Source: Varibaculum massiliense (GTDB taxonomy: Bacteria; Actinomycetota; Actinomycetes; Actinomycetales; Actinomycetaceae). From it: 64,000 nt of DNA. The DNA lies in NCBI RefSeq assembly GCF_900106855.1, contig NZ_FNWI01000004.1, forward strand, positions 2,046,001 to 2,110,000. The letters are read 5' to 3'. Numbering within the stretch: the first letter of the stretch is position 1; the number at the start of each line of letters is the position of its first letter. A program made the position numbers and the translations under genes. The notes beneath the pieces were generated by a model that had not been told where the DNA came from, ran no database searches, and saw only the letters and a list, made by a program, of their open reading frames with translations. This document shows, one piece after another, positions 24,647 through 33,619 of the stretch.

Positions 24647-24997
24647 ATGCATGAAGTTGCGCTTTCCCGCCAACTAGCTCGCATCGTTTCCCGGCATGCG
24701 GCGGGACGTGAGGTTCTAGAGGTAGAGCTAGAGGTGGGGCATTTACGACAAGTAGTACCAGAAGCATTGCAATTTGCTTGGGGTGCCGTTCGTAAAAACA
24801 CTTTGTCGGGTCCTGCCCAGCTTAATATCACCGAGATTCCAGCGGTGATTGTTTGCCAAAACTGTGGATCAAAAACCCAGTTGGAGGAAGTTTTAGATTT
24901 TCGCTGCGCAAACTGTTCCTCCCGTGAGGTAGCGGTCATTAGCGGGGAAGAGTTTAGAGTAGTGTCCATAGAAGTCACGCCAGAGAGGAAACAATAA
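24647..24997 (+). CDS. hypA: nickel insertion protein HypA (copy 1)
   Basis: HypA delivers nickel to the large subunit with HypB. The 116-residue protein starts MHEVALSRQL; His2 and Glu3 form the nickel site. The zinc site is CQNC...CANC at about residues 69-93. A Shine-Dalgarno AAAGGAG precedes the ATG. hypB follows 1 nt after the stop, so the two are co-translated. Only modest identity is seen to the second HypA at 30843. Confidence 0.95.
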   Translation: MHEVALSRQLARIVSRHAAGREVLEVELEVGHLRQVVPEALQFAWGAVRKNTLSGPAQLNITEIPAVIVCQNCGSKTQLEEVLDFRCANCSSREVAVISGEEFRVVSIEVTPERKQ

Positions 24998-24998
24998 T

Positions 24999-25787
24999 AT
25001 GGGACGTTTTCATCGTCATGATGATGGCACGGTACACTCACACGATCACGGAGATCATGCCCACCACCACGATCACGGTGACTATGTGGCTGACCCGGAA
25101 GTAATCGGGGATCACTCCGGATACGACACCGAGAAAGAACGCATTGAAATCCTAGAAGATATCTATGCAGAAAACGACCACTTGGCAGAGCATAACCGTC
25201 AGGCATTCGCAGATAATAACGTGAAAGTGGTTAACCTGATGAGTTCGCCCGGATCGGGAAAAACTACTTTGCTGGAACACACTCTGGCGAAACTGCAAGG
25301 TCAGTTGCGGGTAGGGATTATCGAAGGCGATATTGAAACTCCTTTAGATGCCGAACGCCTGGACGGTTACGGCGCCCAAATATCCCTACTGAACACCGGA
25401 CAAGGTTTTGGCGGCGAATGCCACTTGGATGCCCCTATGGTGCACCACACGCTGGATGGTTTGGATCTCGATCAACTTGACCTGGTAATCATCGAAAATG
25501 TGGGCAACCTAGTGTGTCCGGCAGAGTTCGACGTGGGTGAGAACGCCAAGGCAATGGTGTTTTCTATTACCGAGGGCGAAGATAAGCCTCTAAAGTATCC
25601 GGTGATGTTCCGCTCGGTAGAAATCGTGGTGGTAAATAAGATGGATCTGGCGCCCTATCTAAAGTTCGATATGGATCGGTTCCGCGGATATCTAGAACAG
25701 GTTAATCCGGGAGTAAAGGTGATTGAACTGTCTGCGCTCAATGGGGAAGGAATTGACCCCTGGATCGAGTGGCTAAAGCAACTATAA
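24999..25787 (+). CDS. hypB: hydrogenase nickel incorporation GTPase HypB
   Basis: HypB is a SIMIBI-class GTPase that drives nickel transfer. The N-terminus is rich in His and Asp (HRHD, HSHDHGDHAHHHDHGD), a nickel storage tail. The G domain has the P-loop MSSPGSGKTTLLE, then GDIETPLDAERL, and NKMDLAPY as the base-specificity motif. The length of 262 is normal. It ends the hypAB unit, about 125 nt before the structural genes. Confidence 0.97.
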   Translation: MGRFHRHDDGTVHSHDHGDHAHHHDHGDYVADPEVIGDHSGYDTEKERIEILEDIYAENDHLAEHNRQAFADNNVKVVNLMSSPGSGKTTLLEHTLAKLQGQLRVGIIEGDIETPLDAERLDGYGAQISLLNTGQGFGGECHLDAPMVHHTLDGLDLDQLDLVIIENVGNLVCPAEFDVGENAKAMVFSITEGEDKPLKYPVMFRSVEIVVVNKMDLAPYLKFDMDRFRGYLEQVNPGVKVIELSALNGEGIDPWIEWLKQL

Positions 25788-25862: not shown

Positions 25863-25912
25863 GATTTCGAGAGACGTTGTGGTCTAACTTCAATATCAGT
25901 GAGGAACCGGAA

Positions 25913-27151
25913 ATGAGCTATGAGATAAAACCGTGGCGGGAGGGAACCCTCGCCGATAACCTTGCCAGTGCCGGGGTGAGTCGACGGGATTTCGTTAAAT
26001 ACTGTGCTGGACTAGCAGCCATTTTCGCGGTAGGCACGCCGGAGTTAGCACACGCCGCTCCGGCGCAAAAAGCCGCCGAAGAACTGGCCGACAAACTAGG
26101 GGCGATTACTAAACCCAATGTGGTCTGGTTGCAGCTGCAAGAATGTACTGGCTGCATGGAATCTACTTTGCGTAGCGGGGGAACCACAGTAGAAGAGGTG
26201 GTACTGAACCTGCTGTCGGTGAACTACAACGAGCTAGTAATGGCGGCAGCCGGCGAGGCCGCCGAAAAGGCGCTGGCTGATACTAACGCGAAGGAACATA
26301 TCCTGGTAGTAAACGGCTCTATTCCTACCAAAGATGGCGGTATTTACTGCACGATTGGGGGGAAGACCGCCGAACAAGTCTTGCGGGAATCTGCCGAAAA
26401 TGCTTCCATAATCTTGGCAGTGGGTGCCTGCGCAGTCTATGGTTCCGTGCAAGCTGCAAAACCCAACCCCACCGGTGCGGTCGGCGTAGATGAAATCATC
26501 AGAGACAAGCCGGTTATCAACGTATCGGGTTGTCCTCCAATCGGGGAGGTAATCACTGCCTCGTTAACCTATATCTTGACTCACGGGAAGACTCCCGAAG
26601 TTGATTCCGAGGGACGTCCCCTGTTTGCCTACGGTCAGCGGATTCATGACTCCTGTCCGCGCCGCCCGCACTTCGATGCGGGTCAGTTCGTACGTACTTT
26701 TGATGATGCTGGTGCTCGGGAAGGTTGGTGTCTATACGATGTGGGCTGTAAAGGGCCCTCGACTTTTAGCCCCTGCCCTATAGTCCAATGGAATATGAAA
26801 GCCGGTTGGCCGATTGGTGCTGGTCACCCCTGTATAGGTTGTACTGAGCGTGACTTCTTCGATCGGTTCAGCCCCTTCTACCAAGTGTTGCCTAGCGTTC
26901 CAGGATTCGGGGTGGAGGCTACCGCCGAGAAGGTAGGTCTTGGCTTTACCGGGGCAGTTGCCGCCGGCGTTGCCGTACACGCAGGGGTCACCGCCGCAAG
27001 AGCTGCTGCTGACCGGAAAGCGACCAAGAATTCTCCCATGGCTGCCTTCGGTGATGCCACCGATGTCGATACCGAACCACCCACCCCGGGGGAAACCACT
27101 ACTGCAGAAGTACCTGAGGCAAGCAACGACAAAGACAGTGAGGCTAAGTAA
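25913..27151 (+). CDS. hyaA: [NiFe]-hydrogenase small subunit, Tat-exported
   Basis: The small subunit carries the electron-relay iron-sulfur clusters. A twin-arginine signal (SRRDFVKYCAGLAAIFAVG, about residues 23-41) sends the folded heterodimer across the membrane. The proximal cluster motif is ECTGCMES, and further ligands appear in HDSCPRRPHF, VGCKGPSTFSPC and HPCIGC. The plain CTGC, instead of the CTCC of oxygen-tolerant Hyd-1 enzymes, suggests a standard oxygen-sensitive proximal cluster. A hydrophobic C-terminal segment could anchor it; an acidic tail follows. I chose ATG 25913 (GAGGAA upstream); 25877 would add 12 residues. The symbol marks the role, not proven orthology. Confidence 0.95.
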   Translation: MSYEIKPWREGTLADNLASAGVSRRDFVKYCAGLAAIFAVGTPELAHAAPAQKAAEELADKLGAITKPNVVWLQLQECTGCMESTLRSGGTTVEEVVLNLLSVNYNELVMAAAGEAAEKALADTNAKEHILVVNGSIPTKDGGIYCTIGGKTAEQVLRESAENASIILAVGACAVYGSVQAAKPNPTGAVGVDEIIRDKPVINVSGCPPIGEVITASLTYILTHGKTPEVDSEGRPLFAYGQRIHDSCPRRPHFDAGQFVRTFDDAGAREGWCLYDVGCKGPSTFSPCPIVQWNMKAGWPIGAGHPCIGCTERDFFDRFSPFYQVLPSVPGFGVEATAEKVGLGFTGAVAAGVAVHAGVTAARAAADRKATKNSPMAAFGDATDVDTEPPTPGETTTAEVPEASNDKDSEAK

Positions 27152-28893
27152 TGGCTGAAAAAGTAGTTATCGACCCGTTGACCCGGATTGAGGGTCACCT
27201 GCGCATTGAGATGGAAACTGCTGGCAACCAGATTAAGAAAGCCTGGAGCGTCAGTACCCAGTTCCGAGGAATCGAAACCATCGTGCAGAATCGCGATCCG
27301 CGAGATGTATGGGCCTTCGTGCAACGTATTTGTGGGGTTTGTACCTCGGTACATGCTATTGCCTCTATTACCGCAGTCGAGGACGCGATTGGTTCCAATC
27401 CCCCCGAAAACGCCCGTTTAATCCGTGGTCTAGTATTGGGGTCACAAGAAATCCAAGACCATGTGATCCACTTCTATCACCTACATGCTCTGGACTTCGT
27501 GAATGTTCCTAACGCAGCGAAAGCTGACCCTGCTAAGGCGGTAGAGTTTGCAAACTCCATCGGATCGAAGTGGCGGGGTAATAACCTGAAGCGCTTTACC
27601 GAGGTACGAGATACGGTTAAAAATATCTTGGATTCTGGGCAGCTCTCGGTGTTTACCGGCGGGTATTGGGATCACCCCGATTACCGTCTTCCTCCGGAAG
27701 CAGATTTGATGTGCGTGGCGCACTATTTGGATGCGCTGGAATTCCAACGTTCCATGATTCGGATTAACACGGTTTTCGGTGGCAAGAACCCGCACCCGAA
27801 CTTCCTGGTAGGCGGGATGGCCTGTTCTATAGATCCGACGTCTTCAGAATCCATCAACCAGGTGCAAATGGATCAAGTCAAGACCTGGGTTGAAGAGATC
27901 AACGAATTCGTCAACGATTGCTATTATCCGGATGTTTTGGCTTTGGCCGGGGTGTATAAAGACTACTTCGATATTGGCGCTACTCATCCCAATTATTTGG
28001 CGGTAGGACTGGCGGGGTCGATTTTTGCAGGCGACCCCAATAAGTCGCGGCTAAAATCTCCGCATACGGCTATTAAGCCGGGGGTAATACTCAACGGGGA
28101 TTTGAGTAAAGTACACCCCTTCGATCCGCACAAGATTGAAGAGTTTATCTCTTCTGCCTGGTATGAATACTCGGTAGGGGACAAGAAAGGTCTAACTCCT
28201 GACAAGGGGGAGACCACCGTAAAGTACACCGGGCCGCAGCCACCTTTCGAATGGCTGGGGGATAACGATAAATACACCTGGTCGAAGGCTCCCCGCTATG
28301 ACGGGAAACCAATGCAGGTGGGGCCGGTAGCCCGGATGATACTGGCTTATGCCCAGGGGTACGAGCCGGTTAAGAAACTAGTCGACGGGGCGATTGAAAC
28401 CTTGGGAATCACCCCCGATCAGATTAACTCTACGATGGGACGGACTTTTGCCCGGGCTGCAGAAGCCACGGTCTCTGCCGCCTTGCTGCGAGAGGACTAT
28501 AACGCGCTGGTGGATAACATTAAGCGGGGAGACATTGAGGTTTTCGATGCCAGCAAGTGGGATCCTGGTCATTGGCCGCAAGAATCGCAAGGATACGCGT
28601 TTGTAGAGGTCGCCCGGGGGGATCTTTCCCACTGGGTATCAATCAAGAACAAGAAAGTGGAGCGTTATCAAGCAGTAGTACCCACTACCTGGTTGGCAGG
28701 AGGACGTGACGCCAAAGGTGTTCCCGGTCCCTATGAGCAATCCCTGATGGGAACGGGGACCCATCCCTTGGTAGATCCCAAGGCTCCTCTAGAACCGATG
28801 CGTACTATCCACTCTTATGACCCCTGTATGTCCTGTGGGGTACACATTCTTGATCCCGATGGGAATCTCGTTGGTGAGGCGGTGACCTCATGA
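27151..28893 (+). CDS. hyaB: [NiFe]-hydrogenase large (catalytic) subunit
   Basis: This subunit holds the NiFe site that splits H2. The 580 residues begin VVIDPLTRIEGHLRIE. The four Ni ligands are intact: RICGVCTSVHA near the N-terminus and DPCMSCGVH near the end. Beyond the last His a 15-residue tail (ILDPDGNLVGEAVTS) is the peptide removed by the maturation protease after nickel insertion. Its ATG overlaps the small-subunit stop (TAATG), and the next gene overlaps its stop (ATGA), so the three are tightly coupled. It is a group 1 membrane-bound uptake type. Confidence 0.97.
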   Translation: MAEKVVIDPLTRIEGHLRIEMETAGNQIKKAWSVSTQFRGIETIVQNRDPRDVWAFVQRICGVCTSVHAIASITAVEDAIGSNPPENARLIRGLVLGSQEIQDHVIHFYHLHALDFVNVPNAAKADPAKAVEFANSIGSKWRGNNLKRFTEVRDTVKNILDSGQLSVFTGGYWDHPDYRLPPEADLMCVAHYLDALEFQRSMIRINTVFGGKNPHPNFLVGGMACSIDPTSSESINQVQMDQVKTWVEEINEFVNDCYYPDVLALAGVYKDYFDIGATHPNYLAVGLAGSIFAGDPNKSRLKSPHTAIKPGVILNGDLSKVHPFDPHKIEEFISSAWYEYSVGDKKGLTPDKGETTVKYTGPQPPFEWLGDNDKYTWSKAPRYDGKPMQVGPVARMILAYAQGYEPVKKLVDGAIETLGITPDQINSTMGRTFARAAEATVSAALLREDYNALVDNIKRGDIEVFDASKWDPGHWPQESQGYAFVEVARGDLSHWVSIKNKKVERYQAVVPTTWLAGGRDAKGVPGPYEQSLMGTGTHPLVDPKAPLEPMRTIHSYDPCMSCGVHILDPDGNLVGEAVTS

Positions 28894-30203
28894 GCGATAA
28901 ACCGGGAACCACGACTGTAGAAAAGCCGAAAAAATTATCTAAGAAAGATTTGGCGAAGGCGAATGCAGATCGGCAAATAGAGTTTTTTCCTAAAGACGCT
29001 TCAAAGACCAAAGGAATTGAGGTCGGTGGCGGTTTTAGCTGTTCTGATATCTCCCTGCGCCGTCTGCTAGTAATGGCGGCAGTTTCCCCAAAGGGAAGCA
29101 CCGATCCGGTAGATGTAGCGCTCAAAGAGTCGCTGCGCTACCGCTTCCGTCATGGTGCCCCTAACGTGGATATTCCCGCCGAGAACTTTGATCCGCCTGT
29201 GGATCGGCGCTATTCGTTGGCACGTATCAATGATATGAAGCGCACCAAGTCTGGCAAGTCGCGTAACACTATCATTGCTCGCGGCGATCTTGAGTCGGTG
29301 ATGAATGTCGCCAAACCCGAGCGGGCGCTGCGTACCCTATTAAGGAAGAACGCCCAGATGGCAGGTTCGCGCGGTTACCGCTGCTTAGGGGTCGCCACCG
29401 CCACTGTAGACGAAAACGGCGAAATTAGCCCCTTCTCTATGGAGGGTTTTGTTAATGTGCGCCCAGTGGGTACCGGTCTACAAGGCGGAGAGCTCACTCC
29501 CACCAGCGAAGACTGGGTTAGGCTCAGCGTATGGTCAGGCAGCTTGCGTTTCCTGCATTGGTTTAATGTTCTCCTGATTGTTACCCTCTCAGTAACTGGG
29601 TACTACATTATGGATCCGTTCTTTGGAGATACTTTCTTCCGGGGCATTGATCCGGGATTCCTCATGGGAATTATGCGTTTCATTCACTTCACAGCCGCAT
29701 TCGCTTGGCTGGCGGTGGGGGCTGCCCGCGTGATTATTGCGTTCATCTCTAAGGATCGCTATATGCGTTGGGAAACCTTCTGGCCGTTTAAGAAAAAGCA
29801 GGATTGGATAAATTTCAAGGAAACAGTAGGATTCTATCTTTTCTTAAGGAAAGAAAGCCCGCTTTATGTAGCGCATAATCCTTTGCAACAGATGGCTTAC
29901 ACCTCCATCTATGTTTTAGGGGGTTTCCAGATGTTGATAGGGCTGGCTCTATACGCGCTGCCCTACAAGAACACCAGTCTCTTCTGGCAGATTTTGGCGG
30001 CTCCCAACGATTGGTTGGGGATTCCCATGATGCGCTTCATTCACGCCATGATTATGTTCATGTTCTGGGGTTTCGTTATCGGGCATATCTATTTGGCCTT
30101 CCGAGCGGATTCCTTGGAACGGCATGGTGGGATTTCTTCCATGATTTCTGGAGGGGTTTGGATGCGCCGTACTTCCAAACCCTACGATGCCCCAGAACTT
30201 TAA
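28890..30203 (+). CDS. P-type ATPase N-domain-like / hydrogenase cytochrome b fusion
   Basis: Residues 210-415 are a HyaC-like di-heme cytochrome b: four membrane helices with His223, His266, His385 and His399 as likely haem ligands. It would pass electrons from the hydrogenase to quinone. Residues 55-190 do not belong to that family. They follow the nucleotide-binding domain of P-type ATPases in order: LLVMAA, DPVDVAL (like the TETAL or DAIDAAI region), NFDPPVDRR (like the F-[SN]-x-x-x-KR ATP-site strand), IIARGDLESVM (KGAPE region, with Lys replaced by Arg131), and GYRCLGVAT (like LRCLALAT, whose Arg contacts ATP). The phosphorylated DKTGT and the A domain are absent. ATP sensing is an inference. 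Confidence 0.82.
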   Translation: MSDKPGTTTVEKPKKLSKKDLAKANADRQIEFFPKDASKTKGIEVGGGFSCSDISLRRLLVMAAVSPKGSTDPVDVALKESLRYRFRHGAPNVDIPAENFDPPVDRRYSLARINDMKRTKSGKSRNTIIARGDLESVMNVAKPERALRTLLRKNAQMAGSRGYRCLGVATATVDENGEISPFSMEGFVNVRPVGTGLQGGELTPTSEDWVRLSVWSGSLRFLHWFNVLLIVTLSVTGYYIMDPFFGDTFFRGIDPGFLMGIMRFIHFTAAFAWLAVGAARVIIAFISKDRYMRWETFWPFKKKQDWINFKETVGFYLFLRKESPLYVAHNPLQQMAYTSIYVLGGFQMLIGLALYALPYKNTSLFWQILAAPNDWLGIPMMRFIHAMIMFMFWGFVIGHIYLAFRADSLERHGGISSMISGGVWMRRTSKPYDAPEL

Positions 30204-30217
30204 ACTGAAAGGATGCG

Positions 30218-30895
30218 ATGAGTTCAGGCAAAAGTTTGCCCGCAGCTGAAGGTGCTCCAGAGAATACTGCGGATGGCGCCACTGCTTCAATCGCTCCAGA
30301 TAGACATCGGGCATTACCTGACCTTTCTGCCGTAGATGGCACCGGCTGGGCAGGCAGCCGTTTCACGGTTCTGGCAGTCGGTAATCCGATTATGGGTGAC
30401 GATGCTATTGGTCTAGAGATTCTGGCTCGCTTACAAGCCATGCTTCCCCTGCGTCCCGCCTGGCAAACCGCCGTAGCTAGGGGGGAACTAGCACTGCTGG
30501 AAGGCGGCACCAACGGTATGGAATTGGTGCCGGTAGTCCAAGAGGCCGAGCGACTGTTAATCCTGGATTCGGTAGCTCCCGGCAATGGGCGGGAACCCGG
30601 TCAAGCCTTGCGCATGAGCGGGGATCATGTGCCGCGGCTGCTTTCGATGAAGATGTCCCCCCACCAAGTGGGGTTGCTGGATGTTTTAAGCTCTGCTCGC
30701 CTAACCGGAAAAGAACCTGCTCTTTTGGAAGTTGTGGGGGTGGTCAGCGAAAAAGTAGATTTAAATTTGGGGCTGACCCCCACAGCCGCCGCGGGAATAG
30801 AACCGGCTGCCGCGTTGGCAGCGGAAGTTCTAGATTCGTGGGTTAATCCTTATCCCACTCCACCCAGGAGATCTCGACCTCCCGCCCGTGAGTGA
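30218..30895 (+). CDS. hyaD: hydrogenase maturation protease (HyaD/HybD type)
   Basis: This endopeptidase removes the C-terminal tail of the large subunit once nickel is in place. The core begins FTVLAVGNPIMGDDAIGLEIL (about residues 48-68). The nickel-probing residues are present: Asp in GDDAIG, Asp in LILDSVAPG and His in SPHQVGL. An N-terminal extension of about 45 residues is low-complexity and unusual for the family. AAAGGA precedes the ATG. The last 53 nt overlap the opposite-strand hypA-like gene. Confidence 0.93.
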   Translation: MSSGKSLPAAEGAPENTADGATASIAPDRHRALPDLSAVDGTGWAGSRFTVLAVGNPIMGDDAIGLEILARLQAMLPLRPAWQTAVARGELALLEGGTNGMELVPVVQEAERLLILDSVAPGNGREPGQALRMSGDHVPRLLSMKMSPHQVGLLDVLSSARLTGKEPALLEVVGVVSEKVDLNLGLTPTAAAGIEPAAALAAEVLDSWVNPYPTPPRRSRPPARE

Positions 30896-31199
30896 GATTC
30901 CCGGTGGGCATCCCGCATATTGGGCACAGCAGCGCAAAGAACTCATCGATTTCTACGTCTTGAGCGCAACCGGGGCAATAGACGCTCGCGGGAACGGTAT
31001 TGACTTCGAGTTCGGCAGAGGCACATATGGTACCTTCCCGGGCGATCGGCCAAGAACCGTAGAGAGCCTCCGGGACAGCTCCCGACATCGTCCCCACATT
31101 TAGCGCCACTTTTTCAACTCGGGTAACCTGATAGTTAGCGTCAGCGGCTGCTTTTTCCACCGCTTCCACTACCGAAGTTAATAACCCGAGTTCATGCAT
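30843..31199 (-). CDS. hypA: HypA/HybF-like nickel chaperone (copy 2)
   Basis: This is a second 118-residue HypA. It starts MHELGLLTSVVEAVEKA with the His2/Glu3 nickel site, and has the zinc site YCPGC...CPICG at about residues 74-95. It is divergent from the HupK-like gene at 31223 (23 nt apart) and overlaps the protease gene tail to tail by 53 nt. A second HypA may serve the HupK-like protein, or another nickel enzyme such as urease; no urease genes are in the window. Confidence 0.92.
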   Translation of the reverse strand: MHELGLLTSVVEAVEKAAADANYQVTRVEKVALNVGTMSGAVPEALYGSWPIAREGTICASAELEVNTVPASVYCPGCAQDVEIDEFFALLCPICGMPTGNLTHGREVEISWVEWDKD

Positions 31200-31222: not shown

Positions 31223-32482
31223 ATGAAAATCAACCTAGATGAAATCATCGATCCTATGGAAGGGCGGGTAGTGGTAACCCGTGACTCTGCTGGACAGCAA
31301 CAAGCTCGCTTTGACCTGCAAGGACTTCCACGAGTTGACGGGATGCTAGTAGGGAAAACGGCTCTAGAAGCCTTAAAGATGACCGAACATCTATGCGGGA
31401 TTTGCCCTGTAGCGCATCACCTGGCGGGAAACCGCGCCCTAGACGTCCTGAGTAGGAGCGCTCCGCTATCCCCAGCGGCTGAGCTAACCCGCCGGTTATT
31501 ACATTACGGATCCTTGGTAGAAACCCATTCCCTACGATTCTTGCTGCAAGAACGCGACAGCGGGGTGGTTTTAAAGAAAATCTCCAAGAAAATGCTGGTG
31601 GCAGCAGGATCTCCCGGACATTTTCCTACAACTGCTGTTCCGGGTGGAGTGAGTAGCTGGCCGGAAGTAGAGAACTTAAAAATCTTGCAGGAAGAGCTGC
31701 CCGCAGTCCTGCAGGTGGCGCAAAAACTTTGTGAACTAGGGTTTAACGCCCAACCGCACGCTAGCGGGTTCGGGGAATTTACCGGGGCAGAGTTAGCGCT
31801 AATTGATGAGGACGGGAATCCAGATGTTTTCGGTACGCGGGTAAGAGTGGCGCGCCAGGGAAAAACGGTAAACGAGTTTGAATTCTCCCGCTGGGACCAG
31901 CAGGTTGCGGAAGAAAATTCGGGTGCGGCGGCTCCCCACCCTTACCTACGCGGAGGTAATCCTCGCGATGGTCGTTATCGGGTGGGACCGGTGGCGCAAC
32001 TTTCGGTGGGAACTTTGCCCAGTGAATTGGCGGCAGCAGCGCAAGCACGCTGGTTAGCGGGTAGTCGGGATGCGGCTAATGCCCGCGCGATTATTACTTT
32101 GCACGTCCTGGAAAAAACGGTTGCGGTGGTAGAGCAGTTATTAGCTCTGCTTGAAGCCGGCAGGCTTGAGCCTTGTCCGCAAGAAGAGCAGATAGGTTTT
32201 CAACCCGGAACTGCCACCGGGCTGGTAGATGGTCCGCGAGGGATTCTCGCTCACACTTATGCTACTGATGCTCAGGGAGTAATCAGCGCTGCCACAATTC
32301 TTACCCCCACTGCCCAAAATGAGCCTTGGCTGGCGGATCTGCTAACTCAGGCAATCAGCCTTCAGGATGCGGGTAGGGCAGATGCCCTGGAACAATCGAT
32401 TCGGGAGGCTGACCCCTGTCTGCCAATCAGTTCTGCCCCGGCGGGTCAAATGGGGCTAAAAGTTGATAACCTCGAAAAGTAG
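31223..32482 (+). CDS. hydrogenase large-subunit-like assembly scaffold (HupK-like)
   Basis: This 419-residue protein resembles [NiFe] large subunits. It starts IIDPMEGRVVV and has LCGICPVAHH at residues 57-66, matching the first Ni ligand pair (Cys58, Cys61). At the C-terminus ADPCLPISSAPAG (from residue 396) stands where DPCxxCxxH is expected: Cys399 is kept, but the second Cys is Ile402 and the His is Ala405. A catalytic NiFe site is therefore not possible in the usual form. HupK of rhizobia shows the same loss and is thought to act as a scaffold for ligand assembly. Location between hypA2 and hypC2 supports such a role. Confidence 0.75.
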   Translation: MKINLDEIIDPMEGRVVVTRDSAGQQQARFDLQGLPRVDGMLVGKTALEALKMTEHLCGICPVAHHLAGNRALDVLSRSAPLSPAAELTRRLLHYGSLVETHSLRFLLQERDSGVVLKKISKKMLVAAGSPGHFPTTAVPGGVSSWPEVENLKILQEELPAVLQVAQKLCELGFNAQPHASGFGEFTGAELALIDEDGNPDVFGTRVRVARQGKTVNEFEFSRWDQQVAEENSGAAAPHPYLRGGNPRDGRYRVGPVAQLSVGTLPSELAAAAQARWLAGSRDAANARAIITLHVLEKTVAVVEQLLALLEAGRLEPCPQEEQIGFQPGTATGLVDGPRGILAHTYATDAQGVISAATILTPTAQNEPWLADLLTQAISLQDAGRADALEQSIREADPCLPISSAPAGQMGLKVDNLEK

Positions 32483-32862: not shown

Positions 32863-33252
32863 ATGGCGTGTTTTATTGTTCCTACTGTGGAAGCAGTTGC
32901 CGTAACGGCAGCCAAGAAGCAAATTGCGAGGAAAGCCAAGAGCGGAGCCTCGCCCGAGAGTACCCAGCGTTCACTGAATCTGGTTCGCAAGCTGACTTGG
33001 CTAACCAACCTGCTATGGGGTGGAGCTTTGTTGCTGGCTTTTGAGCACCTGTGGCACGGAGAAGTGGTTCCTTATTTCCCGTTCCTAACTGCTTTGACTG
33101 AGCGTTCCACCACCCAGCAAATGCTATTTGAGATGGGGACTGTGGGTGTCGGAATGGCAGTGTTAGTGACTGTGGTTTGGGGTGTAGGAGTAGCCCTGAT
33201 TCGCGCTAACGAACGGCGCACCAACCCAGCCCCAGAAAAGATCGAGGCCTAA
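32863..33252 (+). CDS. small membrane protein of unknown function
   Basis: The 129-residue protein starts MACFIVPTVEAVAVTAA, a conspicuous amphipathic or hydrophobic N-terminus. It then has a basic stretch and two clear membrane segments (LTWLTNLLWGGALLLAFEHL and VGVGMAVLVTVVWGVGVALI). I have seen similar MACFIVP-type starts in small membrane proteins of other anaerobes but cannot assign a role. AAAGGAG precedes the ATG. It is followed 10 nt later by a second small membrane gene; the pair closes the hydrogenase region, so a link to redox or nickel metabolism is possible. Confidence 0.7.
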   Translation: MACFIVPTVEAVAVTAAKKQIARKAKSGASPESTQRSLNLVRKLTWLTNLLWGGALLLAFEHLWHGEVVPYFPFLTALTERSTTQQMLFEMGTVGVGMAVLVTVVWGVGVALIRANERRTNPAPEKIEA

Positions 33253-33262
33253 AGGATTAGCG

Positions 33263-33619
33263 ATGACCCTAGTAATTACGCTTTTTGCAGCAATTTGTTC
33301 CACCGCCTGGTGGTATTCCCATGCTCCCCAGTCAAAGATGCGGGTAGACCTGCTTTGCTGGATGTATTGGGGTGCCGCCCTGATGTGGACAGTTGATCTA
33401 GCCGCTGAATATATCGAAGAGGGCGCGGATGTTTTCGTGCCTCCAGTACAAGATATGCTCAACGACACCTATCTTGGTCTGTTCGTGGTGGCACTGGCCG
33501 GCGTCGTCTGGATTGGTTACCTAATCGTCAAGGATCCCCGGGGAGTACGCAACGCCCAGCTTGCCCAACGTGGCAGTGAGGCCAGCCTCGATGCGAAAGA
33601 GTTAGTGGCTTCTCGCTAA
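33263..33619 (+). CDS. small membrane protein, partner of the preceding gene
   Basis: The 118-residue protein has an N-terminal membrane segment (LVITLFAAICSTAWWY), then LCWMYWGAALMWTVDLAAEYIEEG, and a third segment (LGLFVVALAGVVWIGYLIV). Acidic residues lie between the helices. No domain is recognised. It is almost certainly co-transcribed with the 129-residue gene upstream, since only 10 nt separate them, and a strong hairpin terminator follows at 33678-33713. Confidence 0.7.
   Translation: MTLVITLFAAICSTAWWYSHAPQSKMRVDLLCWMYWGAALMWTVDLAAEYIEEGADVFVPPVQDMLNDTYLGLFVVALAGVVWIGYLIVKDPRGVRNAQLAQRGSEASLDAKELVASR

Follow-up and report, generated by a model that had tools for sequence, protein, structure and literature searches.

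The DNA analysed here (the window) is a stretch of 64,000 nucleotides from Varibaculum massiliense (contig NZ_FNWI01000004.1, positions 2,046,001 to 2,110,000). An open reading frame on its forward strand (28890-30203) encodes the cytochrome b on the quinone side of a membrane-bound [NiFe] uptake hydrogenase, with the nucleotide-binding domain (N-domain) of a P-type ATPase joined to its N-terminus, which is predicted to be cytosolic. The frame specifies a single protein of 437 amino acids without an internal stop, and its ATG start overlaps the stop codon of the hydrogenase large-subunit gene (ATGA). An earlier interpretation (the sequence-only reading) had proposed an N-domain fused to a hydrogenase cytochrome b and lacking the phosphorylation, actuator and membrane parts of a pump, and the fold, profiles and homologues described below agree with it. 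The landmark motifs it named are present, with Phe100, Arg131 and Arg164 at the residues it gave. It placed the domain at residues 55-190; an N-domain does lie there, but is better bounded at about residues 42-192. The phosphorylation motif DKTGT does not occur in the 437-residue frame, residues 3-7 reading DKPGT instead, and a Pfam search of the protein found no pump domain, the membrane part being assigned to PF01292/TIGR02125. The domain cannot work as a pump because the P-domain, the actuator and the transport helices are missing. The protein is a hydrogenase variant with a new cytosolic domain and not a pump.

The fold of the domain was predicted with AlphaFold2 for residues 42-213 together with eight homologues, giving a predicted local distance difference test score (pLDDT) of 82.8 and a predicted template modelling score (pTM) of 0.80. 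When the model was compared with PDB structures by Foldseek, the best match was the plant H+ pump 5ksd_A (E 3.1e-06), and 22 matches had E 0.001 or better. VIA-align gave Z 17.2 for Pma1 (9ugb_B; root-mean-square deviation (rmsd) 3.0, 149 residues aligned), Z 17.1 for AHA2 (5ksd_A; rmsd 4.0, 151 aligned) and Z 14.1 for the isolated N-domain of HMA8 (5lbk_A; rmsd 2.2, 116 aligned). The best 50 rows of both searches were P-type ATPases throughout, and those of VIA-align covered N-domains over 115-160 residues. The sequence-only reading had looked to structure prediction and a fold search, and P-type ATPase N-domains were on top (Z up to 17.2).

Profile searches pointed in the same direction, although the domain is hard to detect with curated models. 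At their curated cut-offs Pfam and NCBIfam recognized only the cytochrome part, and residues 1-213 had no Pfam match at E 1. The NCBIfam model of P-type H+ pumps, TIGR01647, weakly matched residues 58-186 (E 0.0055 with the whole protein as query, 0.0012 with residues 1-213) at model positions 318-435 of 755, which we take to be its N-domain stretch, in agreement with the other evidence. The Pfam model PF13246 (Cation_ATPase), on the other hand, matched neither the window protein nor any of the ten rows of a homologue profile (A1), whereas all six pump N-domain regions tested passed it, indicating that the domain is far diverged. Thus, of the profile evidence looked for by the sequence-only reading, a weak match to a pump model was obtained but the Cation_ATPase model missed the domain. 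The A1 profile, searched against 396 genomes of the phylum, matched in four, namely the gene itself and three others (E 4.4e-5 to 1.2e-4). These three are all P-type ATPases, with the match inside the N-domain region bounded by DKTGT and the TGD that follows it (DKTGT at 375, 393 and 375; matches at 401-514, 436-549 and 501-564, respectively).

Profile-profile comparison by hhalign aligned 19 fused domains with the DKTGT-TGD regions of 19 pumps at probability 97.2 and E 3.6e-11; an earlier set of 15 rows had given E 9.3e-11. Eleven controls (eight column shuffles, one reversal, and the pump regions before and after the N-domain) gave E 0.077-0.82, the region after the N-domain giving 0.12. The 19 rows comprise ten from the window's family and nine from a second family. 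Two genomes are omitted from them: G794 was missed by the selection pattern, though its N-domain and cytochrome matches are contiguous, and the gene of G168 is split over two contigs, the second piece running from the N-domain into the cytochrome. Chance matching of motifs was ruled out by the fold, the profile comparison and the controls, and we regard the N-domain fold and homology as practically certain.

Beside this whole-domain match, residues 122-170 (29253-29399, + strand) showed a local likeness of 30-50 residues to the P-domain end of P1B pumps. In PDB sequences the A1 profile found seven distinct matches, all copper pumps (best 8q75_A, E 0.012, profile positions 81-125), at a place that we take to be the P-domain end of P1B pumps, in agreement with the positions of GDGxND. 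Five of the ten A1 rows matched TIGR01525 (P1B pumps; best E 0.00084, the matched stretch of the model not being displayed), two matched TIGR01647 (best 0.00072) and two TIGR01512 (best 0.19). Nine weak matches in the family survey were divided among the P1B P-domain end after GDGxND (five, with low scores), the start of the P1B N-domain 13-14 residues after DKTGT (three) and a protein that is not a pump (one). The local likeness is real, while the whole-domain relation is to the pump N-domain, as shown by the hhalign control (0.12 against 3.6e-11) and the fold.

The string DKPGT (28896-28910, + strand) resembles the pump motif DKTGT, which occurs exactly in the close relative G761; G731 has DKAGT and G745 DKRGA at the protein start, and no such string was seen in the other, more distant rows read. 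With no P-domain behind it and no counterpart in those rows, it is probably a chance likeness. Another short motif, [QE][IV][EQ]FF, lies ahead of the N-domain at residues 29-33 (28974-28988, + strand) in several rows of the window's family and was absent from the second-family rows read.

Residues 214-421 of the protein form a hydrogenase b-type cytochrome: they match PF01292 (E 6e-30), the score for TIGR02125, the hydrogenase cytochrome b family, exceeds the curated cut-off of 121.5 bits, and residues 208-421 match Escherichia coli HyaC (4gd3_A, E 3.3e-19). The four invariant histidines of this part, which lie in helices and are conserved in all nine rows of an alignment (A4), are presumably the ligands of two hemes. 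Helices were predicted at 217-241, 255-286, 331-355 and 378-408 in a full-length model of low confidence (pLDDT 65.9, pTM 0.41), from which no domain arrangement was drawn. Lysine and arginine are concentrated in the loop between helices 2 and 3 (nine) and in the C-terminal tail (four), with one in each of the other two loops; the positive-inside rule therefore predicts a cytosolic location for the N-terminus and, with it, the extra domain. In the linker between the two domains Trp209 is invariant in 19/19 rows.

The fusion is real and conserved. It was present in all six genomes of the genus that were searched, and strong N-domain matches were found in 11 of 151 genomes of the family (six of the genus, four of genus g338 and one of g7), eight more having weak matches only. 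A search of 152 family genomes for the cytochrome part gave those eleven again, and in them its coordinates are contiguous with those of the N-domain. At the level of the order, the N-terminal part matched in 14 of 297 genomes: the window's own, ten of the second family (f20) and three weak ones (L012-L014), in which no pump motif was seen and whose scores on re-scanning did not exceed 3.4 bits. For the cytochrome part 15 of the 297 gave matches: the window's own genome and the ten of f20 at E 8.1e-83 or better, and four others at E 8e-29 to 4e-7; the domain was absent from the three of these four that were read (genus g39), the fourth (L069) not being resolved. A phylum sample of 296 genomes added one further genome with a relative, which is unfused. 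A pattern-based scan of 84,980 species, which was not exhaustive since it missed the window's own family, returned eight loci, all in metagenome-assembled genomes of Bifidobacteriaceae (presumably from termite guts, judging by their isolate codes) and corresponding to eight of the ten f20 genomes. The protein matched 76 plasmid records, none covering 80% of it, and the ten listed were annotated cybH. The homologue survey suggested by the sequence-only reading thus found the same extension in the window's family and in a second one, and an assembly artefact as the source of the fusion was ruled out by its presence in many genomes. In a cytochrome tree of 19 fused and three unfused rows the fused proteins lay on one side of a branch with 100/100 support; with only three unfused rows, one of them long, the tree is compatible with a single fusion but gives no date for it. 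In the samples searched the fusion is restricted to one group of this cytochrome.

Purifying selection on the N-domain is strong. When the window gene was compared with nine relatives, the nonsynonymous divergence (dN) of this domain was 0.031-0.278, and the ratio of nonsynonymous to synonymous divergence (dN/dS) was 0.029-0.096 in seven of the nine pairs, the other two being saturated. In the three closest pairs the ratio was 0.029, 0.031 and 0.058 for the N-domain and 0.014, 0.014 and 0.028 for the cytochrome, indicating that selection on the N-domain is somewhat less strict there. The comparison was made position by position without gaps, and synonymous differences were high (0.57-0.79 per site in the N-domain), so that the ratios are rough.

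Conservation of the nucleotide pocket was assessed against Na,K-ATPase. The ATP-docking residues given in the part of the source available (PMC5354106) are Phe548, Glu505, Lys501, Gln482, Lys480, Ser477, Phe475 and Glu446, and Arg544 is named in a title cited by that paper. Six of them were assigned to window residues by motif (our own matching) and scored. The counterparts of Glu446 (D75) and Arg544 (R164) were invariant in the 19 rows and that of Lys501 (R131) was Arg in all of them. Glu was retained at E135 (Glu505) in 17/19 rows and Arg at R106 (Lys480) in 17/19, the adjacent R107 being invariant. Phe100, the counterpart of the adenine-stacking Phe475, was Phe in 11/19 rows: ten of ten in the window's family and one of nine in the second. 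The Phe100 match of the sequence-only reading therefore holds for the window protein but not across the wider family. The pocket is altered but not erased. In the available text of PMC5089723, isolated N-domains bind ATP at 0.7-2.4 mM (SERCA1a), 1.4 mM (KdpB) and 5-25 mM (Na,K-ATPase), and that of ATP7B binds it at 52-74 uM according to the accessible part of PMC3203118. On balance, the domain is slightly more likely than not to bind a nucleotide.

Several observations weigh against a nucleotide-dependent role. The stacking Phe is replaced by Val, Ile or Ala in 8/9 second-family rows, the Lys of the pump motif KGAPE is Arg in 19/19 rows, and Phe548 falls on Val168 in the window protein, a further departure. 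Enrichment of invariant residues among the contacts is weak (three of the six scored, hypergeometric P 0.06); in all, 27 positions are invariant in the 19 rows. For the isolated N-domains of HMA6 and HMA8, isothermal titration calorimetry detected no binding of ATP, as stated in the part of PMC5089723 available. There is no P-domain to close over the phosphates, and the full-length model is too poor to show that the domain touches the cytochrome.

On the subunit that faces the quinone, a module in the cytosol is in a good position to influence electron transfer or assembly. The ATP affinities given above for the N-domains of SERCA1a, KdpB and Na,K-ATPase are near the cellular ATP level. In the mechanism that we propose, the domain would sit on the cytosolic side, where helix 1 enters the membrane, and bind ATP or ADP weakly (in the millimolar range, like some isolated N-domains) without hydrolysis; the bound nucleotide would move it against the cytosolic face of the cytochrome, and this shift would alter electron flow from H2 to menaquinone, so that the domain would act as an energy-charge-sensitive valve. 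The sequence-only reading had likewise suggested that ATP binding could tune H2 oxidation to energy charge. Regulation of the hydrogenase by nucleotide, with this adenylate-sensing valve as the leading mechanism ahead of docking or assembly, may be put forward tentatively, at a level just short of probable. The broader proposal, that an N-domain away from its pump serves as a cytosolic adenylate sensor by which ATP/ADP gates the passage of electrons from H2 to menaquinone in actinobacterial hydrogenases, without hydrolysis or a P-domain, is more tentative still.

The most serious alternative is that the N-domain has kept its fold but has no nucleotide-related role and serves protein docking or assembly at the cytosolic face, where it might contact a maturation factor, a neighbouring complex or a partner dehydrogenase; we consider this possible though rather doubtful. 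The substitutions at the stacking Phe and the KGAPE Lys, the location of just three of the 27 invariant positions among the scored contacts and the failure of some isolated N-domains to bind ATP (PMC5089723, in the part available) would all be consistent with it. The charged contacts D75, R131 and R164, however, are invariant and not obviously needed for docking alone, and the neighbours seen comprise only the usual hydrogenase and hyp genes plus two small proteins of membrane type that match no family significantly. Binding of some different nucleotide, such as a signalling one, in place of ATP in a pocket altered in a lineage-specific way is unlikely; Arg in place of Lys throughout, with Phe kept in one family and mostly aliphatic residues in the other, would suit an altered but not erased pocket, but the idea is inference only. 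That the extension is a functionless relic of gene fusion is very improbable: without a P-domain it cannot hydrolyse ATP as a pump does, but a passive relic was judged unlikely on the dN/dS values, and the fusion is found in 11/11 family genomes with this cytochrome and also in the second family. An origin of residues 122-170 or so from the P1B P-domain end, the N-domain likeness being chance or secondary, is suggested by the PDB sequence matches, by five of the nine weak survey matches and by the greater number of rows matching TIGR01525 than TIGR01647 (5/10 against 2/10), but is so improbable that it can be set aside, the hhalign values and the fold ruling it out, the likeness being local where the N-domain match spans the whole domain, and three other survey matches being P1B N-domain starts.

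Among the papers listed in searches of the open-access full-text literature, judged by titles and the start of abstracts and with most subscription papers outside their scope, none describes this fusion. In pumps the N-domain is usually an insert of the P-domain, and it has been studied in that setting as one half of an active site. Here it is kept under strong selection without the other half, on an enzyme that moves electrons and not ions. If it binds a nucleotide, the protein would offer a natural test of what a lone N-domain can do and would couple a respiratory hydrogenase directly to cellular energy charge, which is unusual; otherwise, the fold would have been reused for docking. Either way, it is a simple and testable feature of a conserved hydrogenase group.

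The fused gene stands in an operon-like row with the genes for the small subunit, the large subunit and a maturation protease (Table 1). As far as the contigs reach, the eight second-family loci (L016-L023) carry the small subunit (72-75% identity), the large subunit (64-73%), the fused cytochrome (44-48%) and the protease (43-52%) in the same order; seven of them also have the divergent hypA and six the large-subunit-like gene. At the proximal cluster the small subunit reads CTGC, which we take to indicate the absence of the extra Cys of oxygen-tolerant enzymes. Two hypA-like genes, whose family name is our assignment (24647-24997, + strand; 30843-31199, - strand), occur in one hydrogenase cluster, one of them divergent, and both are also found in L016. 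The second, shorter [NiFe] large-subunit-like protein (31223-32482) keeps an N-terminal CGIC, and its C-terminal DPCxxC reads DPCLPI in the window, DPCLPF in L016 and DPCLPC in L018 and L019; we assume that it may be a HupK-like maturation accessory. Two small membrane-type proteins (32863-33252 and 33263-33619, + strand) had no significant family match and also occur near the hydrogenase genes of L016. The genome of Varibaculum cambriense is described, in the available part of PMC4177395, as having large and small hydrogenase subunits and a near-complete menaquinone pathway.

Table 1. Coordinates in the window of the hydrogenase genes and of the parts of the fused protein
Feature	Coordinates	Strand	Evidence
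HypA-like maturation protein	24647..24997	+	sequence; homologue in L016
HypB-like GTPase	24999..25787	+	PF02492 E 2.1e-19; His-rich N-terminus
Hydrogenase small subunit with Tat-type signal	25877..27151	+	TIGR00391 410.7 bits, cut-off 179.5
Hydrogenase large subunit	27151..28893	+	PF00374 E 9.1e-207; PDB 3myr_B E 1.4e-175
Fused gene: P-type ATPase N-domain and hydrogenase b-type cytochrome (HyaC/CybH type), 437 aa	28890..30203	+	TIGR02125 141.2 bits
N-terminal tail, residues 1-41, variable, low model confidence	28890..29012	+	pLDDT <50 at 1-16 and 19-38; sequences
P-type ATPase N-domain, residues 42-192	29013..29465	+	AlphaFold2 model, Foldseek, VIA, hhalign
Linker, residues 193-213, low model confidence	29466..29528	+	pLDDT <50 at 195-211
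Cytochrome b, residues 214-437, invariant His223, His266, His385, His399	29529..30200	+	PF01292, TIGR02125, 4gd3_A
Hydrogenase maturation protease (HycI family)	30218..30895	+	PF01750 E 1.8e-19
HypA-like maturation protein, divergent	30843..31199	-	sequence; same place and orientation in L016-L021 and L023
Hydrogenase large-subunit-like protein, possible maturation accessory	31223..32482	+	PF00374 E 2.1e-08

The closest known counterpart of the cytochrome part is HyaC of E. coli hydrogenase 1 (PDB 4gd3, 6g94), which belongs to the same b-type cytochrome family and whose gene likewise stands in an operon with those of the small and large subunits. HyaC, however, has 235 amino acids in the PDB entry and is matched from its residue 7, leaving no space for an extra N-terminal domain. 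The N-domain of P3A H+-ATPases (AHA2, 5ksd; Pma1, 9ugb) has the same fold as that predicted for the window domain, with Z 17.1-17.2 over 149-151 residues, and the curated profile of these pumps, TIGR01647, is the one matched by the window protein. In contrast to the P3A pumps, with which its identity is about 15-20%, the window domain does not interrupt a P-domain, actuator and transport domains are missing from the protein, and Arg replaces the KGAPE Lys. A P-type ATPase part on another enzyme is also found in guanylyl cyclase alpha of Plasmodium falciparum (PMC7858053). To judge by the title of that paper, a P4-ATPase is there joined to a eukaryotic cyclase, whereas the window protein carries an N-domain only, on a bacterial respiratory subunit.

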